A DNA stretch of 8,784 nucleotides from Candidatus Rokuibacteriota bacterium (lineage in GTDB: Bacteria; Methylomirabilota; Methylomirabilia; Rokubacteriales; JACPHL01): positions 1-8,784 of the forward strand of contig JACPHL010000300.1 of assembly GCA_016188625.1 (NCBI GenBank), read 5' to 3'. Below are positions 33-8,784 of this stretch, in pieces. Both the position numbers and the translations under genes were made by a program. The notes beneath the pieces are model-generated. The model saw nothing but the letters and a program-made list of their open reading frames with translations, did no database searches and had not been told where the DNA came from. Positions within the stretch are counted from its first letter, which is position 1, and each line of letters begins with the position of its first letter.

Positions 33-39
33 TGTGACG

Positions 40-2454
40 GTGTCACAGGAGAAGCTTCAGCTCAAGATCGGGGGGATGGCGTGCTCCTTCTGCACCGAGA
101 CGATCAAGAAGGGGCTCGGCCGGATGGACGGGGTGTCAGAGGTCAACGTGAGCCTGGCTCACGAGGAGGCCCTGGTCGTCTTCGATCCCGATCGCGTGAC
201 CCCGCGCGTCCTGACCGACACGCTTCGGAGCCTCGGCTACACCGTGAGGGACCCGAAGAAGGTCCGGACCTTCGAGGAGGAGGAGGCCGAGCTCGGGCGG
301 GAGCGCGATCGGTTGACGATCGCCGGGGCCGGCGCCTGGGCGCCTTTCATGGCCATGGTGCTCATGTGGGTGGGGCGGCACCACCCGTGGATGGACTGGT
401 TCATGGGGGCGCTCGGCCTCGTCATGGTCTTCGGTCCCGGCCTCCACATCCTCAGGATGGCCTGGGCCTCCGCGCGGCGCCGGATCCTGAACCAGCACGT
501 CCTCATGGAGGTCGCCGCCTTCGGCGGGCTCCTGGGCGGCGCGATCGGGCTGGCCAATCCCGTCTTCCCGAGCTGGGAGTTCTCCGCGGTCTCGGTCTTC
601 GTCACCGCCTATCACATCCTGGGCGGGTATACCTCGCTCCTGGTGCGGACCCGCGCCTCCCAGGCGGTGAAGAAGCTCCTCTCGCTCCAGCCGCCCACGG
701 CGCGCATCGTCCGCGACGGGGCAGAGGTCGAGGCACCGATCGAGGAGGTCAGGGCGGGCGACCTGGTCCGGGTGCGCCCGGGCGAGCAGATCCCCGTGGA
801 CGGGGTCGTCGAGGAGGGGGCCTCGGCCGTCGATGAGAGCCTGGTCACGGGCGAGCCGCTCCCGCGGGAGAAGCTCCCGGGGCACGAGGTGATCGGCGGC
901 TCGCTCAACCACTCCGGCACCCTCCTGGTCCGCGTGAGCCGCGTGGGCGAGGAGAGCTTCCTCCAGCAGGTGGCCCGCCACATTCGTGAGGCCCGGGCGC
1001 TCAAGCCCGGGATCCTCCTCCTCCTGGACCTAGTCCTCAAGTACTTCGTCCCCGGGGTCCTCCTCGTCGGCGCGGCCGCCTTCGTCTTCTGGACCCTCGG
1101 CGGGTGGCTCCTCTGGGGCGCCGCTGATTGGGAGCGCGCCGGCTTCGCGGCGCTCGCGGTCCTCGTGATGGGCTACCCGTGCGCCCTCGGGATGGCCACG
1201 CCGCTCGCGATGATCCGGGGCGGCGGGGAGGCGGCCCGGCAGGGGATCCTGATGCGCAGCGCGGCCTCCTTCCAGGCGTTCAAGGACGTCTCGGTCGTCG
1301 TCCTCGACAAGACCGGCACCATCACCCACGGCGAGCCGCGGGTGGTGGAGGTGCTCCCGGCCGAGGGGTGGGACGCCGACGGCCTCCTCGCCCTGGCCGC
1401 CTCGGCCGAGCAGGTCTCCGAGCACCCGCTCGGCCAGGCCGTGGTCAAGGCCGCGAAGGAGAGGGGCGTGCGACTCGACAGGGTCGAGAGCTTCGAAGCC
1501 GTTCCGGGCAAGGGGGTGCGGGCCACGGTGGCTGAGAGGCCGGTGCTGATCGGGACGCTGCGCTTCCTTCAGGAGTCCGACGTCGAGACCGGCGCGCTCG
1601 CCGGGCCGGCCGGAGAGCGTGAGGCCAGGGCGCAGACGGTCGTCGCCGTGGCGATGGCGGGCCGGGCGGCAGGGCTCATCGCCCTTGCCGACACGGTCAA
1701 GGACGATGCGAGGGAGGCGATCGTCCGGCTTCAGGGCCTCGGGATCGAGCCGGCCATGATCACCGGGGACAACGAGCGGACGGCCCGGGCGGTGGCGGAG
1801 CAAGTCGGGATCCAGGAGGTGCTCGCCCAGGTCCTCCCCCACGAGAAGGCCGAGCGTGTCCGCGCGCTCCAGCGCCGGGGGAAGCGCGTCGCCATGGTCG
1901 GGGACGGGATCAACGACGCCCCGGCGCTCATGCAGGCGGACGTGGGGCTCGCCATCGGGGCGGGCACCGACATCGCCATCGAGTCGGCCGACGTGGTCCT
2001 CGTGGGCGAGCGGCTCACGGCCGTGGTGGACGCCTACCATATCGCCCGCCGGACCTACCGGAAGACGGTCCAGAACCTTTCCCTGGCGTTCAGCTTCAAC
2101 GGCGTCGGGGTCCCGCTGGCCACGACCGGCCTCGTCTCCCCGGTCTGGGCGATGGTGGCGATGGCCGCCAGCGTGAGCACCGTCCTCCTGAATTCCTTCT
2201 GGGGCCGGCTCGTCCCTCGCCTCGTCCCACGGACGGCCACCGTCGAGCGGGTGACGCTCCGGGTCCCCAGCATCCACTGTCAGGGGTGCGTGACGACGAT
2301 CCAGGAGACGCTCGTGAAACTGCCGGTGGTGATGGCGGTCGAGGGGGACCCTCATACCAAGGAGATCGTCGTGACCATGCGCGACGGCCCGGGCCGGCTC
2401 AAGGCCGTCGAAGAGGCGATCGCGCGCATCGGCCACGTCGTGGGGGAGAAGTGA
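40..2454 (+). CDS. P1B-type heavy-metal-translocating ATPase with N- and C-terminal HMA domains
   Basis: Inner-membrane ATPase that exports a soft metal, probably Cu(I)-like, from the cytoplasm (inferred from family). From the GTG at 40 it has 804 residues, normal for CopA-type pumps. Seen in order: HMA domain with CSFC (C15, C18); four membrane segments at about 97-200; actuator TGE (270-272); two more segments, the second with YPCALG (379-381); phosphorylation DKTGT (D423); nucleotide-site HP (462-463); hinge GDGIND (621-626); two last segments with Nx6FNx4P (N679, F686, N687) and MxxS (M708, S711); then a second HMA domain with CQGC (C747, C750). TM7 and TM8 resemble Cu(I) pumps with Tyr replaced by Phe, but the first Cys of CPC is Tyr, so metal specificity is uncertain. 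A C-terminal HMA domain is uncommon. The frame is open to the left edge, so the protein may be longer. The next gene follows after one base. Confidence 0.95.
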   Translation: MSQEKLQLKIGGMACSFCTETIKKGLGRMDGVSEVNVSLAHEEALVVFDPDRVTPRVLTDTLRSLGYTVRDPKKVRTFEEEEAELGRERDRLTIAGAGAWAPFMAMVLMWVGRHHPWMDWFMGALGLVMVFGPGLHILRMAWASARRRILNQHVLMEVAAFGGLLGGAIGLANPVFPSWEFSAVSVFVTAYHILGGYTSLLVRTRASQAVKKLLSLQPPTARIVRDGAEVEAPIEEVRAGDLVRVRPGEQIPVDGVVEEGASAVDESLVTGEPLPREKLPGHEVIGGSLNHSGTLLVRVSRVGEESFLQQVARHIREARALKPGILLLLDLVLKYFVPGVLLVGAAAFVFWTLGGWLLWGAADWERAGFAALAVLVMGYPCALGMATPLAMIRGGGEAARQGILMRSAASFQAFKDVSVVVLDKTGTITHGEPRVVEVLPAEGWDADGLLALAASAEQVSEHPLGQAVVKAAKERGVRLDRVESFEAVPGKGVRATVAERPVLIGTLRFLQESDVETGALAGPAGEREARAQTVVAVAMAGRAAGLIALADTVKDDAREAIVRLQGLGIEPAMITGDNERTARAVAEQVGIQEVLAQVLPHEKAERVRALQRRGKRVAMVGDGINDAPALMQADVGLAIGAGTDIAIESADVVLVGERLTAVVDAYHIARRTYRKTVQNLSLAFSFNGVGVPLATTGLVSPVWAMVAMAASVSTVLLNSFWGRLVPRLVPRTATVERVTLRVPSIHCQGCVTTIQETLVKLPVVMAVEGDPHTKEIVVTMRDGPGRLKAVEEAIARIGHVVGEK

Positions 2455-2990: not shown

Positions 2991-3545
2991 ATGGGCGGTC
3001 CAGAGGGCGGGGCGGGAGCTTCCCCCGCCGAGTTCGAGGCCGCCCTCCTGCCGCATCTGGAGAGCATGTTCCGCCTCGCCCGGTCCCTCATGCGCGGGAA
3101 CCGGGCCGACGCCGAGGACCTCGTCCAGGACGCCGTCCTGAGGGCCTTCCAGGCCTTCCCCCGCTTCCGACCGGGCACCAACCTCCGCGCCTGGCTCTTC
3201 CGGATCCTCCGCAACAGCTACGTCGATCTGCTCAGGCGCAAGGGGCGTCAGGCCGAGCTGGCCGACCTCGAGGAGGCGAGCGCTGAGCACGATCCCGCCG
3301 TGGAGGAGTTCCGGGCCCAGGCGGCGCGGGAGCGGGCGGAGGCCGACCTGGAGAGCGCGCTCGCCCAGCTCCCGGCGGAGCATCGCCTCACGCTCCTCCT
3401 GGTCGACGGCGAGGGGATGCGCTACGAGGAGGCGGCCGAGATCATGGAGTGCCCGATCGGGACCGTTCGGTCACGCGTGCACCGCGGCCGGCACCTCCTC
3501 CGCCAGTGTCTTCTGGAGATCTGGAGGGGTCGGGCACCGTCCTGA
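2991..3545 (+). CDS. RNA polymerase ECF (sigma-70 family) sigma factor
   Basis: 184 residues, the usual size for a group IV (ECF) sigma factor. Region 2 spans about residues 22-85, with DAEDLVQDAVLRAF followed by FRPGTNLRAWLFRILRN, the core-binding and -10-recognition signature. A charged linker follows. Region 4 spans about 122-178, with LPAEHRLTLLLVDGEG and the helix-turn-helix YEEAAEIMECPIGTVRSRVH, which reads the -35 element. There is no extra C-terminal domain. The ATG at 2991 is the first usable start after the previous stop, with only a weak ribosome site (GGCGGGG), so translation may depend on the upstream genes. The next gene encodes its likely anti-sigma factor. It presumably directs transcription of part or all of this locus (inference). 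Confidence 0.93.
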   Translation: MGGPEGGAGASPAEFEAALLPHLESMFRLARSLMRGNRADAEDLVQDAVLRAFQAFPRFRPGTNLRAWLFRILRNSYVDLLRRKGRQAELADLEEASAEHDPAVEEFRAQAARERAEADLESALAQLPAEHRLTLLLVDGEGMRYEEAAEIMECPIGTVRSRVHRGRHLLRQCLLEIWRGRAPS

Positions 3546-3580
3546 CCGTCGCGGGTGCCGGCTCCCTCCTCCCTTTTGGG

Positions 3581-3610
3581 GCTCCCGGGAACTTTCAGGG
3601 GGCCGGGAGC
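3581..3610. repeat. Perfect 8-bp inverted repeat between sigma and anti-sigma genes
   Basis: GCTCCCGG at 3581-3588 and CCGGGAGC at 3603-3610 are exact reverse complements separated by 14 bases. The loop holds most of the GGAACTT element. No T-run follows the right arm, so it does not look like an intrinsic terminator; an operator or an mRNA hairpin is more likely. Confidence 0.55.
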
Positions 3611-3620
3611 GATCTTGTAA
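3588..3620 (+). promoter_or_regulatory. Candidate ECF-type promoter upstream of the anti-sigma gene
   Basis: GGAACTT at 3588-3594 matches the -35 class read by RpoE-like ECF factors. About 18 bases later comes TCTTGTAA (3613-3620), a plausible -10. The element sits in the 99-base gap after the sigma gene and about 25-55 bases before the anti-sigma start. The sigma factor may therefore drive the anti-sigma and downstream genes, leaving the sigma gene itself on a different promoter. This rests on pattern matching only. Confidence 0.4.
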
Positions 3621-3628
3621 GTGAGGGG

Positions 3629-3637
3629 AGGAGGTGA
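3629..3637 (+). promoter_or_regulatory. Near-perfect ribosome binding site of the anti-sigma gene
   Basis: AGGAGGTGA is a full-length match to the anti-Shine-Dalgarno sequence and ends 7 bases before the ATG at 3645. It selects that ATG over the in-frame GTG at 3621, which lies upstream of the site. Confidence 0.7.
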
Positions 3638-3644
3638 CGGGCCG

Positions 3645-4451
3645 ATGAACGAAGGGACGTGCCAGGACTCGCGCGAGCGGATCACCGCCTGGGTGGACGG
3701 TGAGCTGACCGACCCTCGGGAGGCGGCCGGTCTCGAGGCCCATCTCGCTGGCTGCGAGCGCTGCCGCGGCTACGCCGAAGCCGAGGCAACCACGAAGACG
3801 CTGATCGCCACCGCGTACACGGCCCCTGTTGAGGTCAGCGGGCTTCACAGGCGGATTCGGGGGCTCCTTGAGGCGGCCACGCCCCCGAAACGCCGCCCCT
3901 GGCGCCTCTGGCTGCCGCGGCTCGCCTGGGGGGCCCTCGCGGCGGGCCTGCTGGTGGCGGCGGCGATCGGCGATGTCGCGGTCCAGCCAGGGCGCCCGGT
4001 GGAGGCCTCCCCGCTCGTCCGGGCCGCGGTCTCGGACCACGTCCAGTGCATGCTCGGCCAGCTCCCGCTCGAGGTGACCACCACCGATCAGGATGAGGTC
4101 GGCCGCTGGCTTCGGGAGCGTCTGGCGCGGCCGGTGGTGCTCCCGCCCCTGGCCTCGGAAGGGGAGCTCTCGACCCGGATGGCCCGCCTCGCGATGGCCC
4201 AGGGGGCGCAGATCCTCTTCGACCGGGGCGGGCGGATGCTCTCGCTCTTCATCATGCCGGTGAGCGAGGTGACGGGGGCGCTCGGCAGGCCGGTGCCCCG
4301 GGGAGGGCGGGAGTTCTTCGTGAACGAGGTGGAGGGGTACACGGTCGTCTTCTGGCGGCAGGGGGATCTCCTGTACTGCCTCGTGTCGGCCGCCGGGCAG
4401 GACGAGGTGCTGACCTTTGCCGCCGAGTACGCCGGAGCATCCACGGGCTGA
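3645..4451 (+). CDS. Transmembrane zinc-finger anti-sigma factor
   Basis: 268 residues, probably inhibiting the ECF sigma factor encoded just upstream. The cytoplasmic N-terminus has the zinc-finger anti-sigma layout: C6, then ITAWVDGEL, then H33-x3-C37-x2-C40 (HLAGCERC). A basic stretch (PPKRRPWRLWLPR) precedes one membrane segment at about 93-113 (LAWGALAAGLLVAAAIGD). The remaining ~155 residues should lie in the periplasm and act as the sensor. They include DHVQC (H132, C135), LSLFIMP, and VVFWRQGDLLYCLVSA near the end, with one more Cys. The paired His/Cys and the second Cys could bind metal or respond to thiol oxidation; this is inference. The start is set by the ribosome site at 3629-3637. 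The sigma gene ends 99 bases upstream and the cytochrome gene begins 37 bases downstream. Confidence 0.88.
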   Translation: MNEGTCQDSRERITAWVDGELTDPREAAGLEAHLAGCERCRGYAEAEATTKTLIATAYTAPVEVSGLHRRIRGLLEAATPPKRRPWRLWLPRLAWGALAAGLLVAAAIGDVAVQPGRPVEASPLVRAAVSDHVQCMLGQLPLEVTTTDQDEVGRWLRERLARPVVLPPLASEGELSTRMARLAMAQGAQILFDRGGRMLSLFIMPVSEVTGALGRPVPRGGREFFVNEVEGYTVVFWRQGDLLYCLVSAAGQDEVLTFAAEYAGASTG

Positions 4452-4488: not shown

Positions 4489-5358
4489 ATGAAGCGGCGA
4501 GAGGTGACTTTCGGAGGGCTCCTCGCGCTCCTCGCCATCGGAAGCGCTGGTAGCGTGATTGGCTCGGCCCTGCCGGCGCCCGACCTCGAGCGGGGACGGC
4601 TGGTGTATGAGACCAACTGCGCGATCTGCCACGGTCTGGACGGCAACGGCAGGGGGATGGCCCGCCATCATTTCGAGACCCCGCCGGCCGACTTCCGGAC
4701 CGGCAAGTTCAAGTTCCGCTCGACGCCGTCGGGCTCGCTGCCGCTGGATGCCGACCTCTTCAGAACCATCACTCAGGGCGTGGGGCGGACGGGGATGATC
4801 CCGCAGGTCCACCTGGACGAGGCGGATCGCCGGGACGTGGTCGCCTACATCAAGACGCTCTCCCCGCGGTTCGGGCGAGAGGAGCCCCAACCTCCGATCC
4901 CGATCCCTTCTACCCCCGACCGGACCCCGGAGTTCATGGCCCGGGGCCGAGCGCTCTACTTCGATGCGGGGTGCGCCGACTGCCACGGCGAGGGCGGCAA
5001 GGGCGACGGCCCGTCGGCCCGGGAGCTCACGGACGACTGGGGCAACCCGATCCGCCCCGCCGACCTCACCCGCCTCCCCCGGAAGAGCGGCCCGAAGCCG
5101 GAGGACCTCTACCGCACGATCGGGACCGGGCTGGACGGCACCCCGATGCCGTCGCACGCCGATGCCCTGACACCCGAGGAGATCTGGGCGCTCGTGGCGT
5201 ACCTGTGGGGGCTGCCGCCGAAGTCTGAATGGGCGAACCTGGGGACGTTGGTCGATGAGGAGATCGTCGGGTTCAACGTCGAGAAGAGGCACCGCCAGCC
5301 GCTCCCGCCCAGGGGCTCGCCGGGACCGGGCGCGCCTGCCGGGAGCCGCAAGCGCTGA
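4489..5358 (+). CDS. Diheme c-type cytochrome
   Basis: 289 residues. An N-terminal hydrophobic segment after MKRREV (about residues 8-28) serves as signal peptide or anchor, placing the protein in the periplasm. There are two class I cytochrome c domains with CxxCH heme sites: CAICH at 44-48 (within NCAICHGLDGNGRG) and CADCH at 162-166 (within GCADCHGEGGKGDG). Likely axial Met ligands are in GRTGMIPQV and LDGTPMPSH. Each domain ends in the expected helix (DVVAYIKTL; EIWALVAYLWGL). The tail is Pro/Gly/Arg-rich. I chose the ATG at 4489 because it begins directly before a signal-like segment; the ribosome site is weak. An upstream in-frame GTG at 4417 would overlap the anti-sigma gene. The role is probably electron transfer; its substrate in this metal locus is unknown. 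Confidence 0.92.
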   Translation: MKRREVTFGGLLALLAIGSAGSVIGSALPAPDLERGRLVYETNCAICHGLDGNGRGMARHHFETPPADFRTGKFKFRSTPSGSLPLDADLFRTITQGVGRTGMIPQVHLDEADRRDVVAYIKTLSPRFGREEPQPPIPIPSTPDRTPEFMARGRALYFDAGCADCHGEGGKGDGPSARELTDDWGNPIRPADLTRLPRKSGPKPEDLYRTIGTGLDGTPMPSHADALTPEEIWALVAYLWGLPPKSEWANLGTLVDEEIVGFNVEKRHRQPLPPRGSPGPGAPAGSRKR

Positions 5359-5960: not shown

Positions 5961-6656
5961 ATGCAGGCGCTCCTGGAGGTCGCCCTCCCGCTCGGCCTGG
6001 GCGTCGTGGGGGCCTTCACCCCGTGCGCGCTGGGGATCAACGCCGTCATCCTCACCTACCTCGCCGGGAAGGCGCGCGCGGCGCGGCTCGTCCAGGTGGG
6101 CCTCATCACCGGGGTCCGGGCCCTGTTCCTCATGTCGCTCGGGCTCCTCTTCGGCCTGTTCGGGCAGTCGGTGGCCGTCTTCATCCGCGGCTACCAGCAG
6201 GTCATCGCGCTGGCGATCGTCGCGGTGGGCGTGGCCTTCGTCCTGAGCGCCTTCGTGGACCTCCCGATGCCCCGCCTCAGGGTCCTCCGCCCCAGGGGAG
6301 GGGCCGGGAGCGCGCTCGCCCTGGGCACCGCCTTTGGGCTCTCAATCCCTGCCTGCACCAGCCCGCTGGTGATCGGCCTCCTGGCGCAGACGGTCCTGGT
6401 CGGCGACTGGGCGACCGGCGCGGGGATCCTCTTCCTGTTCGGGATCGGCATGTCCCTCCCCCTCGTCGCCGTCAGCCTCTTCGACGGGATCAACCGCGGG
6501 CTCGTGGAGTGGGCGCGCCGGTGGCGGATCCCGGCGTACGTGCTCGCCGGCGGGGTGTTTATCCTCCTGGGTGCCGCCGAGTTCTCGCCATGGGTGATGG
6601 CGTTCTTCGCCGATCTCCTGGATTGGGTCACCCCTGTGGCCGCGGGCCTACTGTGA
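5961..6656 (+). CDS. CcdA/DsbD-like membrane thiol-reductant transporter
   Basis: 231 residues, almost entirely hydrophobic, with about six membrane segments, matching CcdA-type proteins. These carry reducing equivalents from cytoplasmic thioredoxin across the inner membrane through a pair of cysteines. The expected pair is visible: C22 in FTPCALGINAV of the first segment, and C132 in SIPACTSP at the start of the second half, the position of the PC motif of the second repeat in CcdA. A Gly/Pro/Arg linker (VLRPRGGAG) separates the halves. Between a secreted CxxC HMA protein and, two genes on, a secreted CxxU HMA protein, its likely job is to keep those periplasmic metal ligands reduced; alternatively it supports cytochrome c heme ligation, given the diheme cytochrome nearby. 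Both are inferences from context. The start is the ATG 15 bases after the previous stop. Confidence 0.85.
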   Translation: MQALLEVALPLGLGVVGAFTPCALGINAVILTYLAGKARAARLVQVGLITGVRALFLMSLGLLFGLFGQSVAVFIRGYQQVIALAIVAVGVAFVLSAFVDLPMPRLRVLRPRGGAGSALALGTAFGLSIPACTSPLVIGLLAQTVLVGDWATGAGILFLFGIGMSLPLVAVSLFDGINRGLVEWARRWRIPAYVLAGGVFILLGAAEFSPWVMAFFADLLDWVTPVAAGLL

Positions 6657-6685: not shown

Positions 6686-7630
6686 ATGCACACGGTGAGC
6701 CGAGCTGTGCTGCCGGCGGGGATCCTCGTCCTGATGCTGCTCCTGCCCGAGCTGGCCGCGGCGTTCCCGATCAACGCGCCGAACGCCCGCACGCTCTTCG
6801 GGGGGTTCACTTTGGGCGCCTTCCGGCTCCGGGTGACCCGTGAGGCGACCCTCAAGGAGGGGACGAAGACCGTTTCGGACCCTCGGGATCAGGCCGTCAC
6901 GACCTTCGAGGAGGACGTGACCGTCGTCTACGGGGCGACCCGGGACCTGACGGTGGGCGCGACCCTTCCGATCATCCAGCGCCGGCTCCGCTTCGACGAC
7001 CCGGCGGGAGGGCGCCGAACGATCTCGGCCGACGGGCTCGGCGATCTGGCGCTGGTGGGAGCGTACCGCTTCTACCGGAGGGACGTCGAGCGGAGCACCA
7101 CGCAGTTCTCGCTCCTGGGCGGCCTCAAGCTCCCCACCGGGCGCACGGACGTCGAGGACTCCGATCTCCCGCGCCTGACAGGCGGGACGGAGACCCGGCT
7201 CCCGCCGAACCTCCAGCTCGGCTCGGGGGCGGTGGACGGGATCGTCGGCCTCGCCGGCTTCCACAATATCGACCGGCTTAGCTTCTCCGCCGACGTCCAG
7301 GGGAAGTTCAACACGGAGGGCGCCCAGGACTTCCGGGCCGGCAACTCGCTCCACTACGACCTGTCGGCGGACTACGTCCTCCTGCCAGGGCGCAACATGT
7401 TCCTGATCCTGGAGCTGAACGGGGTCTTCAAGGCGCGGGCGGAGCAGGCCGGGAGGACGGTCCGGGATTCCGGCGGCCACCTGCTCTTCCTGTCACCGGG
7501 GATCCAGTACCTGCCGATCCCGCCCCTCATCCTGGAGGCGGGGGTCCAGATCCCGATCTTTCGGGACCTGAACGGCCGCCAGCTCGCGCCGGACTGGAGC
7601 GTGGTGGTGGGCCTGCGGTACCTGTTCTGA
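6686..7630 (+). CDS. Outer-membrane beta-barrel protein (putative transporter, PF13557-like)
   Basis: 314 residues. A signal peptide (MHTVSRAVLPAGILVLMLLL, cleavage near ELAAA-FP) is followed by about 290 residues of alternating-polarity strands and short turns, for example TTFEEDVTVVYGATRDLTVGA, FSLLGGLKLPTGRTD and LILEAGVQIPIFRDL, ending in GLRYLF. A C-terminal aromatic on the last strand is the usual signal for outer-membrane insertion. The GLGDLALVGAYRFY and GGLKLPTG segments recall the group annotated as transporter / MetA-pathway of phenol degradation family, whose biochemical role is poorly known. It has no Cys. In this locus it may provide an outer-membrane route or scaffold. The ATG at 6686 is preceded by AGGGAGG and lies 29 bases after the CcdA-like gene. 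Longer in-frame extension upstream would overlap that gene and can be discounted. Confidence 0.85.
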   Translation: MHTVSRAVLPAGILVLMLLLPELAAAFPINAPNARTLFGGFTLGAFRLRVTREATLKEGTKTVSDPRDQAVTTFEEDVTVVYGATRDLTVGATLPIIQRRLRFDDPAGGRRTISADGLGDLALVGAYRFYRRDVERSTTQFSLLGGLKLPTGRTDVEDSDLPRLTGGTETRLPPNLQLGSGAVDGIVGLAGFHNIDRLSFSADVQGKFNTEGAQDFRAGNSLHYDLSADYVLLPGRNMFLILELNGVFKARAEQAGRTVRDSGGHLLFLSPGIQYLPIPPLILEAGVQIPIFRDLNGRQLAPDWSVVVGLRYLF

Positions 7631-7724
7631 GCGGGAGGCCTGAAACCGCGGCCCGAGAGGATGCATCACATGAGAACAAGTTCCACCCTTTCTAACGCGT
7701 ACCCCGGAAAAAGGAGGAGAACAA
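7631..7724 (+). promoter_or_regulatory. 94-base leader upstream of the selenoprotein gene
   Basis: One of the two longest gaps in the window. It contains a small palindrome, GAAC-AA-GTTC (7674-7683), TCTAACG shortly after (from 7691), and an A-rich stretch ending in the AAGGAGGAG ribosome site (7711-7719). It is less GC-rich than the surroundings and could hold a separate promoter, but no convincing -35/-10 pair and no terminator can be named. Confidence 0.3.
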
Positions 7725-8261
7725 ATGCGCAGACTGTTTGCTCTGGCGCTCGCCCTGGCTCTCGCGGCCCTGGCCGCGCCCGCCCCGGCGATGGCCGAGG
7801 TCGAGAAGGTGGTCATCGACATCCTGGGCGGCATGCAGTGCAGCCTCTGAACGTACGGGGTGAGCAAATCCCTGAGACGGCTGGATGTCGTCCGAGATGT
7901 GAAGACCGAGCTGAGCACGCAGTCCTCGACGCTCACCTTCAAGCCCGGGAGGCCGATCGACTTCCGCGCCCTCGCCGACGCGGTTGACAGGGCGGGCTTC
8001 AAGGCCGGGAAGATCACCCTCTGGGCCACGGGGACGCTGAAGGTGGGGGCGGACGGCCGCGCGATCTTCACCGTGAGCGGCACGAACCAGGCCCTGCCTG
8101 TGGCCGACAGCCCACAGCTTGCCCCCCTGAAGAAGGAGGCCGGTAAGGAGATCCCCATCGTCGCGGAGGTCCGCTTCCAGGAGACCCCGCCCAGGCTGGT
8201 CATCGCGTCCGCCAAACCCGGCATGGAGGGGATGCCCGGGATGAAGGGGATGGGGCAGTAG
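7725..8261 (+). CDS. Secreted HMA-domain selenoprotein with a CxxU metal site (UGA recoded)
   Basis: 178 residues if the TGA at 7848-7850 is read as selenocysteine. AAGGAGGAG sits 5 bases before the ATG. Residues 1-24 are a signal peptide (MRRLFALALALALAALAAPA...AMA). The HMA domain follows: VEKVVIDILGGMQ-C39-S-L-U42-TYGVSKSLRRLDVV, then LSTQSSTLTFKPG and DFRALADAVDRAGFKAGKI. U42 is exactly where the second Cys of CxxC belongs, and the later HMA elements are in the same frame. From about residue 92 a second beta-rich domain of unknown family runs (LWATGTLKVG...IPIVAEVRF), perhaps OB-like. The tail has Met at 167, 170, 173 and 176. The protein should bind a soft metal in the periplasm. A conventional caller would give a 41-residue peptide and a second ORF from the GTG at 7860, which lacks a ribosome site and a signal peptide. 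The alternatives are a Cys-to-stop mutation or a sequencing error (TGC to TGA). Sec genes are not in the window. Confidence 0.82.
7848..7850 (+). other. Probable selenocysteine (UGA) codon
   Basis: An in-frame TGA at codon 42 aligns with the second Cys of the HMA CxxC motif, giving C-S-L-U. The frame is continuous on both sides and encodes coherent HMA sequence. Confidence 0.8.
7876..7892 (+). promoter_or_regulatory. Candidate bacterial SECIS hairpin
   Basis: GACGGC (7876-7881) pairs with GTCGTC (7887-7892) in six base pairs including one G-U. The loop is TGGAT, with a G at its second position. The loop begins 31 bases after the TGA. Bacterial SECIS elements lie directly downstream of the UGA within the coding region, with a short stem, a G near the start of a small loop, and about 16-37 bases between UGA and loop; this hairpin fits. 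The lower stem is not convincing, and folding was done by eye. Confidence 0.5.
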
Positions 8262-8271
8262 AAGGCCGGCG

Positions 8272-8784
8272 GTGCCGCCCCTGATCCAGGACACCTTGAC
8301 CTGGGCCTGGGCGTACGTCCAGCACGTCGTGATCATGTTCTACTGGGCGTGGGTTCCGGGCTTCCTCGCCGCCGCCCTCCTCAGCGCTCGCTACCGGCCT
8401 GCGCTCGCTGCCATCACCCTCCGGGAGCGCGCGGGACCGAGGGCCTTCTGGGCCGCGGTCGGCTGGGGGATGGCGAGCGGGCCCGGACGCCGGTCCGGCC
8501 TGGAGACGGCCAGGCGTCTCTGGGAGCAGGGGGTCCCCGATCACGTCGTCCTGGCCTTCCTCGTCGCCAGCCAGGGCCTCGTCCTCTACAGCCTGGTGCT
8601 CTTCACCCTCCTGATCGGCCTCGAGTTCGCGCTGGGCGTGTTCCTGGGCGGGCTGGTGATGATCGGTCTCCTGCGCCTGCTCGCGCCCGCCCGGGGGCCG
8701 GGGAGCGAGCGCACGCCGGACGCCCCAGCGGAGGCCGCCGGGCCGCGCCCCGAGACCTGGAGGGCCCTCGTCTGCTCCGCAAGG
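8272..8784 (+). CDS. Permease-like inner-membrane protein, 3' end outside the window
   Basis: 171 codons are visible with no stop, so the gene continues beyond the right edge. The GTG at 8272 starts 10 bases after the selenoprotein stop, with GAAGG just upstream; an internal ATG at 8335 is a less likely start because it would cut into the first membrane segment. Membrane segments are visible at about 19-37 (VVIMFYWAWVPGFLAAALL), 92-115 (VVLAFLVASQGLVLYSLVLF) and 117-138 (LEFALGVFLGGLVMIGLLRLL), with a cytoplasmic-looking stretch between (RPALAAITLRERAGPR, GPGRRSGLETARRLWEQG). The arrangement of a short ETARRLWEQG helix followed by AFLVASQ and an LEFxLG segment recalls the predicted permeases of the DUF318/ArsP (YraQ) group, some of which export arsenic compounds; this is from memory and weak. 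After residue 138 a Pro/Glu/Arg-rich loop begins. Its position makes it part of the metal-handling operon. Confidence 0.7.
   Translation, partial: MPPLIQDTLTWAWAYVQHVVIMFYWAWVPGFLAAALLSARYRPALAAITLRERAGPRAFWAAVGWGMASGPGRRSGLETARRLWEQGVPDHVVLAFLVASQGLVLYSLVLFTLLIGLEFALGVFLGGLVMIGLLRLLAPARGPGSERTPDAPAEAAGPRPETWRALVCSAR

Follow-up and report, generated by a model that had tools for sequence, protein, structure and literature searches.

Hg(II) is bound more strongly by selenolate than by thiolate, and the use of selenocysteine (Sec) as a metal ligand instead of a redox centre is thought to be rare among selenoproteins. Among the described systems closest to the locus considered here, selenoproteins designated 'Mercuric transport protein MerP' were recorded in the GOS survey of 2008, the table of which includes two MerP sequences with no Sec motif given (PMC2398784). 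MerT selenoproteins with a C/SxxU motif and P-type ATPase selenoproteins with a UxxC motif have also been reported, UxxU proteins of the NF041115 type have been listed as metal-binding protein/putative mercuric reductase, and a Methylomirabilota MAG with 63 selenoproteins has been cited, in a 2026 review according to which the roles of selenoproteins in metal detoxification need investigation (PMC13188914).

The window analysed here (the whole 8,784-nt stretch of DNA) contains a gene in which an HMA domain is combined with a predicted Sec at the metal motif, as in the NF041115 model (UxxU_metal_bind, metal-binding (seleno)protein). The host belongs among the Methylomirabilota/Rokubacteria, and its closest named relatives are the Candidatus Rokuibacteriota MAGs JACOUJ010000108.1 and JACPCF010000087.1.

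An in-frame UGA in a conserved two-domain gene

The gene occupies positions 7725..8261 of the + strand (ATG at 7725, end of the TAG stop at 8261) and comprises 178 codons, of which codon 42 (TGA, 7848..7850, +) would be read as Sec and provide the second metal ligand. Translated in this manner, the product begins MRRLFALALALALAALAAPAPAMAEVEKVVIDILGGMQCSLU TYGVSKSL... and runs for 178 residues to the TAG. The first-pass annotation described a ribosome site, a signal peptide, HMA sequence up to Cys39-Ser-Leu, the TGA and a same-frame continuation with an extra domain, with which both the coordinates and the sequence agree. A Shine-Dalgarno-like AAGGAGGA (7711..7718, +), read from the sequence, is located 6 nt before the ATG, and GGAG-containing sites are found upstream of the start codons of homologues as well. 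The putative signal peptide MRRLFALALALALAALAAPAPAMA (7725..7796, +) was predicted by eye from the sequence pattern; this N-terminus has low pLDDT in the AlphaFold2 model and is hydrophobic in homologues too. The HMA domain (7797..8015, +) contains the metal motif G-G-M-Q-C39-S-L-U42, and the proposal that it extends across the TGA is borne out by the PF00403 match to the read-through translation, which spans the TGA and exceeds the gathering cut-off (28.3 versus 24.8 bits when Cys stands in for Sec). It is followed by a C-terminal domain (8016..8219, +), predicted to be an OB-fold barrel from the AlphaFold2 model and its OB-fold matches, and by a Met-rich tail GMEGMPGMKGMGQ (8220..8258, +), which is disordered in the model and occurs only among Rokubacteria-type CxxU orthologues. 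The absence of TAA and TAG from 136 codons has a probability of ~4 % from composition in GC-rich DNA, and the long open frame by itself is therefore weak evidence.

When 95 genomes of the phylum were searched for the same gene, the same TGA was encountered in G094, G072 and G029 (85, 74 and 67 % identity, respectively), such that all four Rokubacteria/Methylomirabilota CxxU orthologues (4/4) carry TGA at this codon. Since the TGA, and not TGC or TGT, recurs in three independently assembled relatives, it is no sequencing accident. Among the CxxU genes, pN/pS is 0.11–0.23 before the TGA and 0.21–0.43 past it, which indicates purifying selection on both sides and not the downstream decay of a pseudogene. 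In a wider alignment search of 388 genomes, followed by translation of the matches, two-domain homologues were also found outside the phylum. Within the phylum, UxxU two-domain forms occur in G014, G026, G027, G029, G023 and G028; outside it, the motifs comprise UPTU in G167, UPFC (UxxC) in G244 and CPFC in G270, while G284 encodes both a CPFC (CxxC) and a UGGU copy. A distant homologue in G191, from another phylum, has CVFU (CxxU) and, like the Rokubacteria-type proteins, carries an insertion of one residue ahead of the motif. Throughout the two-domain homologues found, both metal-ligand positions are Cys or Sec. The equivalent of position 42 is encoded by TGA or a Cys codon in the distant homologues, an outcome that the first-pass annotation had named as supportive. 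The CxxU rows cluster in the phylogeny, but the support is weak (56/42) and does not warrant the claim that CxxU arose only once. Viral contigs and plasmids yielded no relatives. The shared position of the TGA in four genomes, the pN/pS values downstream and the Sec/Cys residues of distant homologues together constitute evidence beyond chance.

The host genome, which had been singled out as the place to look for selA, selB, selC and selD, contains all four. A tRNA-Sec (selC) with a UCA anticodon, SelA and SelB are encoded together on contig C273 (6.9 kb), where the SelA-like gene, recognized from its sequence and not by a profile search, lies between the tRNA-Sec and SelB. SelD exceeds its cut-off and itself has one in-frame TGA, read GUACK (L037, G000:C179:1347-2267). 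Because tRNA-Sec, SelA, SelB and SelD are present, the host is equipped to decode Sec. Apart from the window genome, tRNA-Sec exceeds the cut-off in 9 of the 13 homologue genomes, and SelB is present in two more, G023 and G028; in G270, in which only the Cys form was found, neither tRNA-Sec nor SelB does so. G284 is the one exception, having a two-TGA copy, yet neither tRNA-Sec nor SelB reaches the cut-off, for which contamination, a missing contig or diverged machinery may account. In this genome, which is 98 % complete, the UGGU homologue adjoins the CxxC copy on the same contig.

If the UGA were an ordinary stop, the gene would be either a pseudogene or a 41-residue peptide followed by a GTG-started ORF of 133 residues. 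Such an ORF does exist at 7860..8261, and a short first product is conceivable in principle; however, the second product would start within an HMA helix and lack a signal peptide, and the HMA domain itself spans the TGA. Combined with the purifying selection on both sides, the retention of TGA in four genomes and the Sec/Cys alternation in homologues, this makes termination at codon 42 very improbable. Insertion of another amino acid, by Trp recoding or general stop readthrough, is compatible with the sequence alone, but Trp would abolish the CxxC metal site, the homologues have Cys at the position, the genome encodes the full Sec machinery and other genes of the window end normally in TGA; this alternative seems even more remote. 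A CxxU selenoprotein hidden by an in-frame UGA, as originally proposed, accounts for the recurrent TGA, the purifying selection, the Sec/Cys exchange and the Sec machinery, and the gene almost certainly encodes a selenoprotein into which Sec would be inserted in vivo.

Hairpins downstream of the UGA

Two hairpins are predicted downstream of the UGA in 11/11 genes of the first set. The first of these (7857..7873, +), conserved in the 11 genes with four invariant base pairs, was rejected as a SECIS core, its loop being too near the UGA by the published model. According to that model, a bSECIS has a loop of 3–9 nt with G in the first two loop positions, a stem of 4–16 bp, a distance of 16–37 nt from the UGA and an MFE of ≤ −7.5 kcal/mol (PMC13188914). 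The second hairpin (7875..7893, +), which is regarded as the candidate SECIS, fits this description with its apical loop UGGAU (7882..7886) 31 nt after the UGA and a stem of 6–7 bp. In the window gene its bare stem is borderline in energy (−7.4 versus the limit of −7.5 kcal/mol), the local fold with flanks reaches −10.6 and the bare stem is at −10.7 in three orthologues.

In the alignment of the SECIS region (n=11 sequences), 88.8 % of cells pair, the covariation score is higher than in any of the 500 shuffles or of the slid versions, and both-side changes are observed in the second hairpin at columns 28:46, 29:45 and 33:41. Codons of the CxxU genes in which the amino acid is invariant vary synonymously at 1/13 positions in the interval +1..+14, versus 20/33 at +15..+59 (Fisher p = 0.002), and the same test on the UxxU set yielded 3/9 versus 14/15 (p = 0.004). 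A hairpin of equal strength is present at 30 of the 211 TGA triplets of the window (14 %), although a (U)GGA loop is found at only two, and for this reason the hairpin alone was not accepted as proof. The SECIS evidence is the conservation, and not the hairpin as such. The Rfam model SECIS_1 (RF00031) gave no match in the host genome, a result which is uninformative because it gave none in any control either.

Other HMA selenoproteins were encountered alongside. Five of them, from the Methylomirabilota genomes G083, G069, G073, G078 and G016, have the motifs CQSU, CSGU, CQFU, CPSU and CAAU, several with a second HMA-like repeat, and have in common the hairpin CAGCCTTGGAGAGGCTG, which is invariant and lies 16 nt downstream of the UGA. 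Two more HMA proteins, in G051 and G201, carry Sec in the first position of the motif (USSC and UGLC).

Predicted fold, gene neighbourhood and candidate metal

The AlphaFold2 model of the protein (mean pLDDT 80.6) has an HMA fold at residues 25–100, for which structure comparison returned HMA7, PacS, MerP and CopZ; the best Z of 9.4 belongs to a Cu-binding HMA domain, and MerP has a Z of 8.5. Modelled alone, the C-terminal domain forms a five-strand barrel (pLDDT 83.0), with OB folds as its best matches, including the C-terminal domain of NlpE (Z 7.5), SilF (6.6) and the C-terminal domain of SilB (5.8). No function was drawn from these matches, since the arrangement is a common one and NlpE, SilF and SilB tie with numerous unrelated OB folds. 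The domain is not covered by any Pfam model, and its best Pfam hits, with E values of 0.01–0.1, were taken as chance.

The selenoprotein gene lies between genes for a predicted outer-membrane protein of the PF13557 (Phenol_MetA_deg) type (6686..7630, +) and an ArsP_1-like permease (8272..8784, +), of which only the start is included because the window end cuts the gene; both are conserved neighbours. A heavy-metal ATPase of the P1B type that contains two HMA domains (34..2454, +) is a recurrent neighbour of the module, and the region further encodes CopZ-like and secreted HMA proteins (CEGC, CPAC) and a DsbD_TM-type membrane protein (5961–6656). The metal island also includes a diheme cytochrome c (4489–5358), and between the ATPase and the remaining genes of the island there is an ECF sigma factor with a zf-HC2 anti-sigma-like gene (2991–4451), a pair that is found beside the module at one other locus (L029) too. 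By tblastn of the homologue loci, the PF13557 protein and/or the permease, and often the ATPase, adjoin the two-domain protein in most cases, other phyla included. Full-length module permeases (n=3) match PF03773 ArsP_1 only, and none of the three matches NF033936 (SO_0444 family Cu/Zn efflux transporter).

Genes resembling those of mer operons accompany several homologues, the mer-type assignments being below the curated NCBIfam cut-offs, with the exception of MerA, and MerE passing that of Pfam. In G191, the genes for the CxxU protein and its permease belong to one co-directional cluster with those for MerE-like and MerT-thioredoxin proteins and for a MerA that exceeds its curated cut-off and ends in SCCAE (a C-terminal CC pair). 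The UxxC protein of G244, with its PF13557 neighbour, is accompanied by a MerA ending in SCCAS. The CxxC form of G270 is immediately preceded by genes for a MerR-like regulator and a MerTP-like fusion, and the PF13557 protein comes after it. MerT-like genes are located in the vicinity of the G014, G026 and G029 copies, and MerA-like genes beside the copies in G026 were dropped as MerA, as they lack the C-terminal CC pair. Within the window itself, no merA, merT or merR-like genes were found.

Granted that the protein is a selenoprotein, it might still be redox-active, as a thiol-selenol oxidoreductase or peroxide sensor, and carry no metal. CxxU is a common redox motif and the DsbD_TM-type gene of the window would supply an electron-transfer component, but the fold is that of HMA and not of thioredoxin, the neighbours are a metal ATPase and a permease, and MerT-, MerE-, MerA- and MerR-like genes stand beside the homologues; a redox role is thus considered unlikely, and a selenoprotein from this gene would very probably be a metal carrier. 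Which metal it would carry is less clear-cut. That Cu(I) or Ag(I), and not Hg(II), is the metal of such a carrier is suggested by the CopA-like P1B ATPase, the CopZ-like HMA protein and the diheme cytochrome in the window, by the Met-rich tails of the CxxU orthologues and by the silver/copper chaperones SilF and SilB among the OB-fold look-alikes. However, the resemblance to OB folds is generic (Z up to 7.5), and mer genes occur with the homologues in G191, G244 and G270, as do MerT-like genes in G014, G026 and G029. Copper or silver is accordingly held as a tentative alternative, and mercury is favoured over copper because mer genes neighbour the relatives, which would make it, on balance, the probable main metal of a metal-carrying selenoprotein.

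The computations directly yield the Sec codon and its conservation, the host's set of Sec-decoding genes, the predicted fold of the protein and the conserved module of genes, and a mechanism may be proposed on this basis. UGA42 would be decoded as Sec under the direction of a SECIS hairpin within the coding region, and Cys-Ser-Leu-Sec would then form a thiolate-selenolate pair on the HMA metal-binding loop, where soft metals may be bound tightly, as the first-pass annotation suggested. The mature protein, presumably secreted to the periplasm and similar to a metallochaperone, may capture a soft metal ion there; Hg(II) has the best support as this ion, and Cu(I) or Ag(I) are the alternatives. 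The protein may then pass the ion to, or receive it from, the outer-membrane protein and the ArsP_1-like permease of the inner membrane, both encoded in the same module, with the OB-fold domain as a possible partner-docking or second binding module. As a whole, the interpretation as a periplasmic CxxU selenoprotein that carries soft metals, with its presumed Sec insertion, export, metal and direction of transfer, is judged to be likely. A bolder suggestion, which is put forward with some reserve, is that the HMA-OB selenoprotein, the PF13557 protein and the ArsP_1-like permease may constitute an undescribed envelope-spanning system for soft metals (mercury) in several phyla, with CxxC, CxxU, UxxC and UxxU carriers.

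The natural occurrence of CxxC, CxxU, UxxC and UxxU forms of one metal loop would permit a direct measurement of how Sec influences metal affinity and transfer. Gene callers for which TGA is a stop would shorten such genes or overlook them, and the module is therefore probably under-annotated.

Comparison with described metal-binding proteins

The two-domain protein scores far under the cut-offs of every HMA-related NCBIfam model, and no description of a two-domain CxxU protein was found in the literature. The expectation that a secreted two-domain version is little described therefore holds for the curated libraries searched. NF041115, a 74-position single-domain model with UxxU, differs from the protein described here, which has CxxU and the extra OB-like domain and scores 33.3 bits against a cut-off of 95. 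MerP (TIGR02052) is likewise a periplasmic HMA protein, and some homologues of the present protein are found in the company of mer operon genes; however, MerP lacks the second domain, and the score is 34.9 bits versus a cut-off of 92.55. In NF045683 (MerT/CopZ fusion-like heavy metal transport selenoprotein), an HMA segment with Sec is similarly placed in a soft-metal transport setting, but its MerT membrane part is absent from the protein here, which scores 25.7 bits versus 375. Copper chaperones of the CopZ/Atx1 type share the HMA fold (Z up to ~8) but, unlike this protein, are cytoplasmic, have a Cys-only CxxC motif and consist of a single domain. HMA/MerP-type selenoproteins are thus already on record, whereas the two-domain CxxU family appears to be undescribed.
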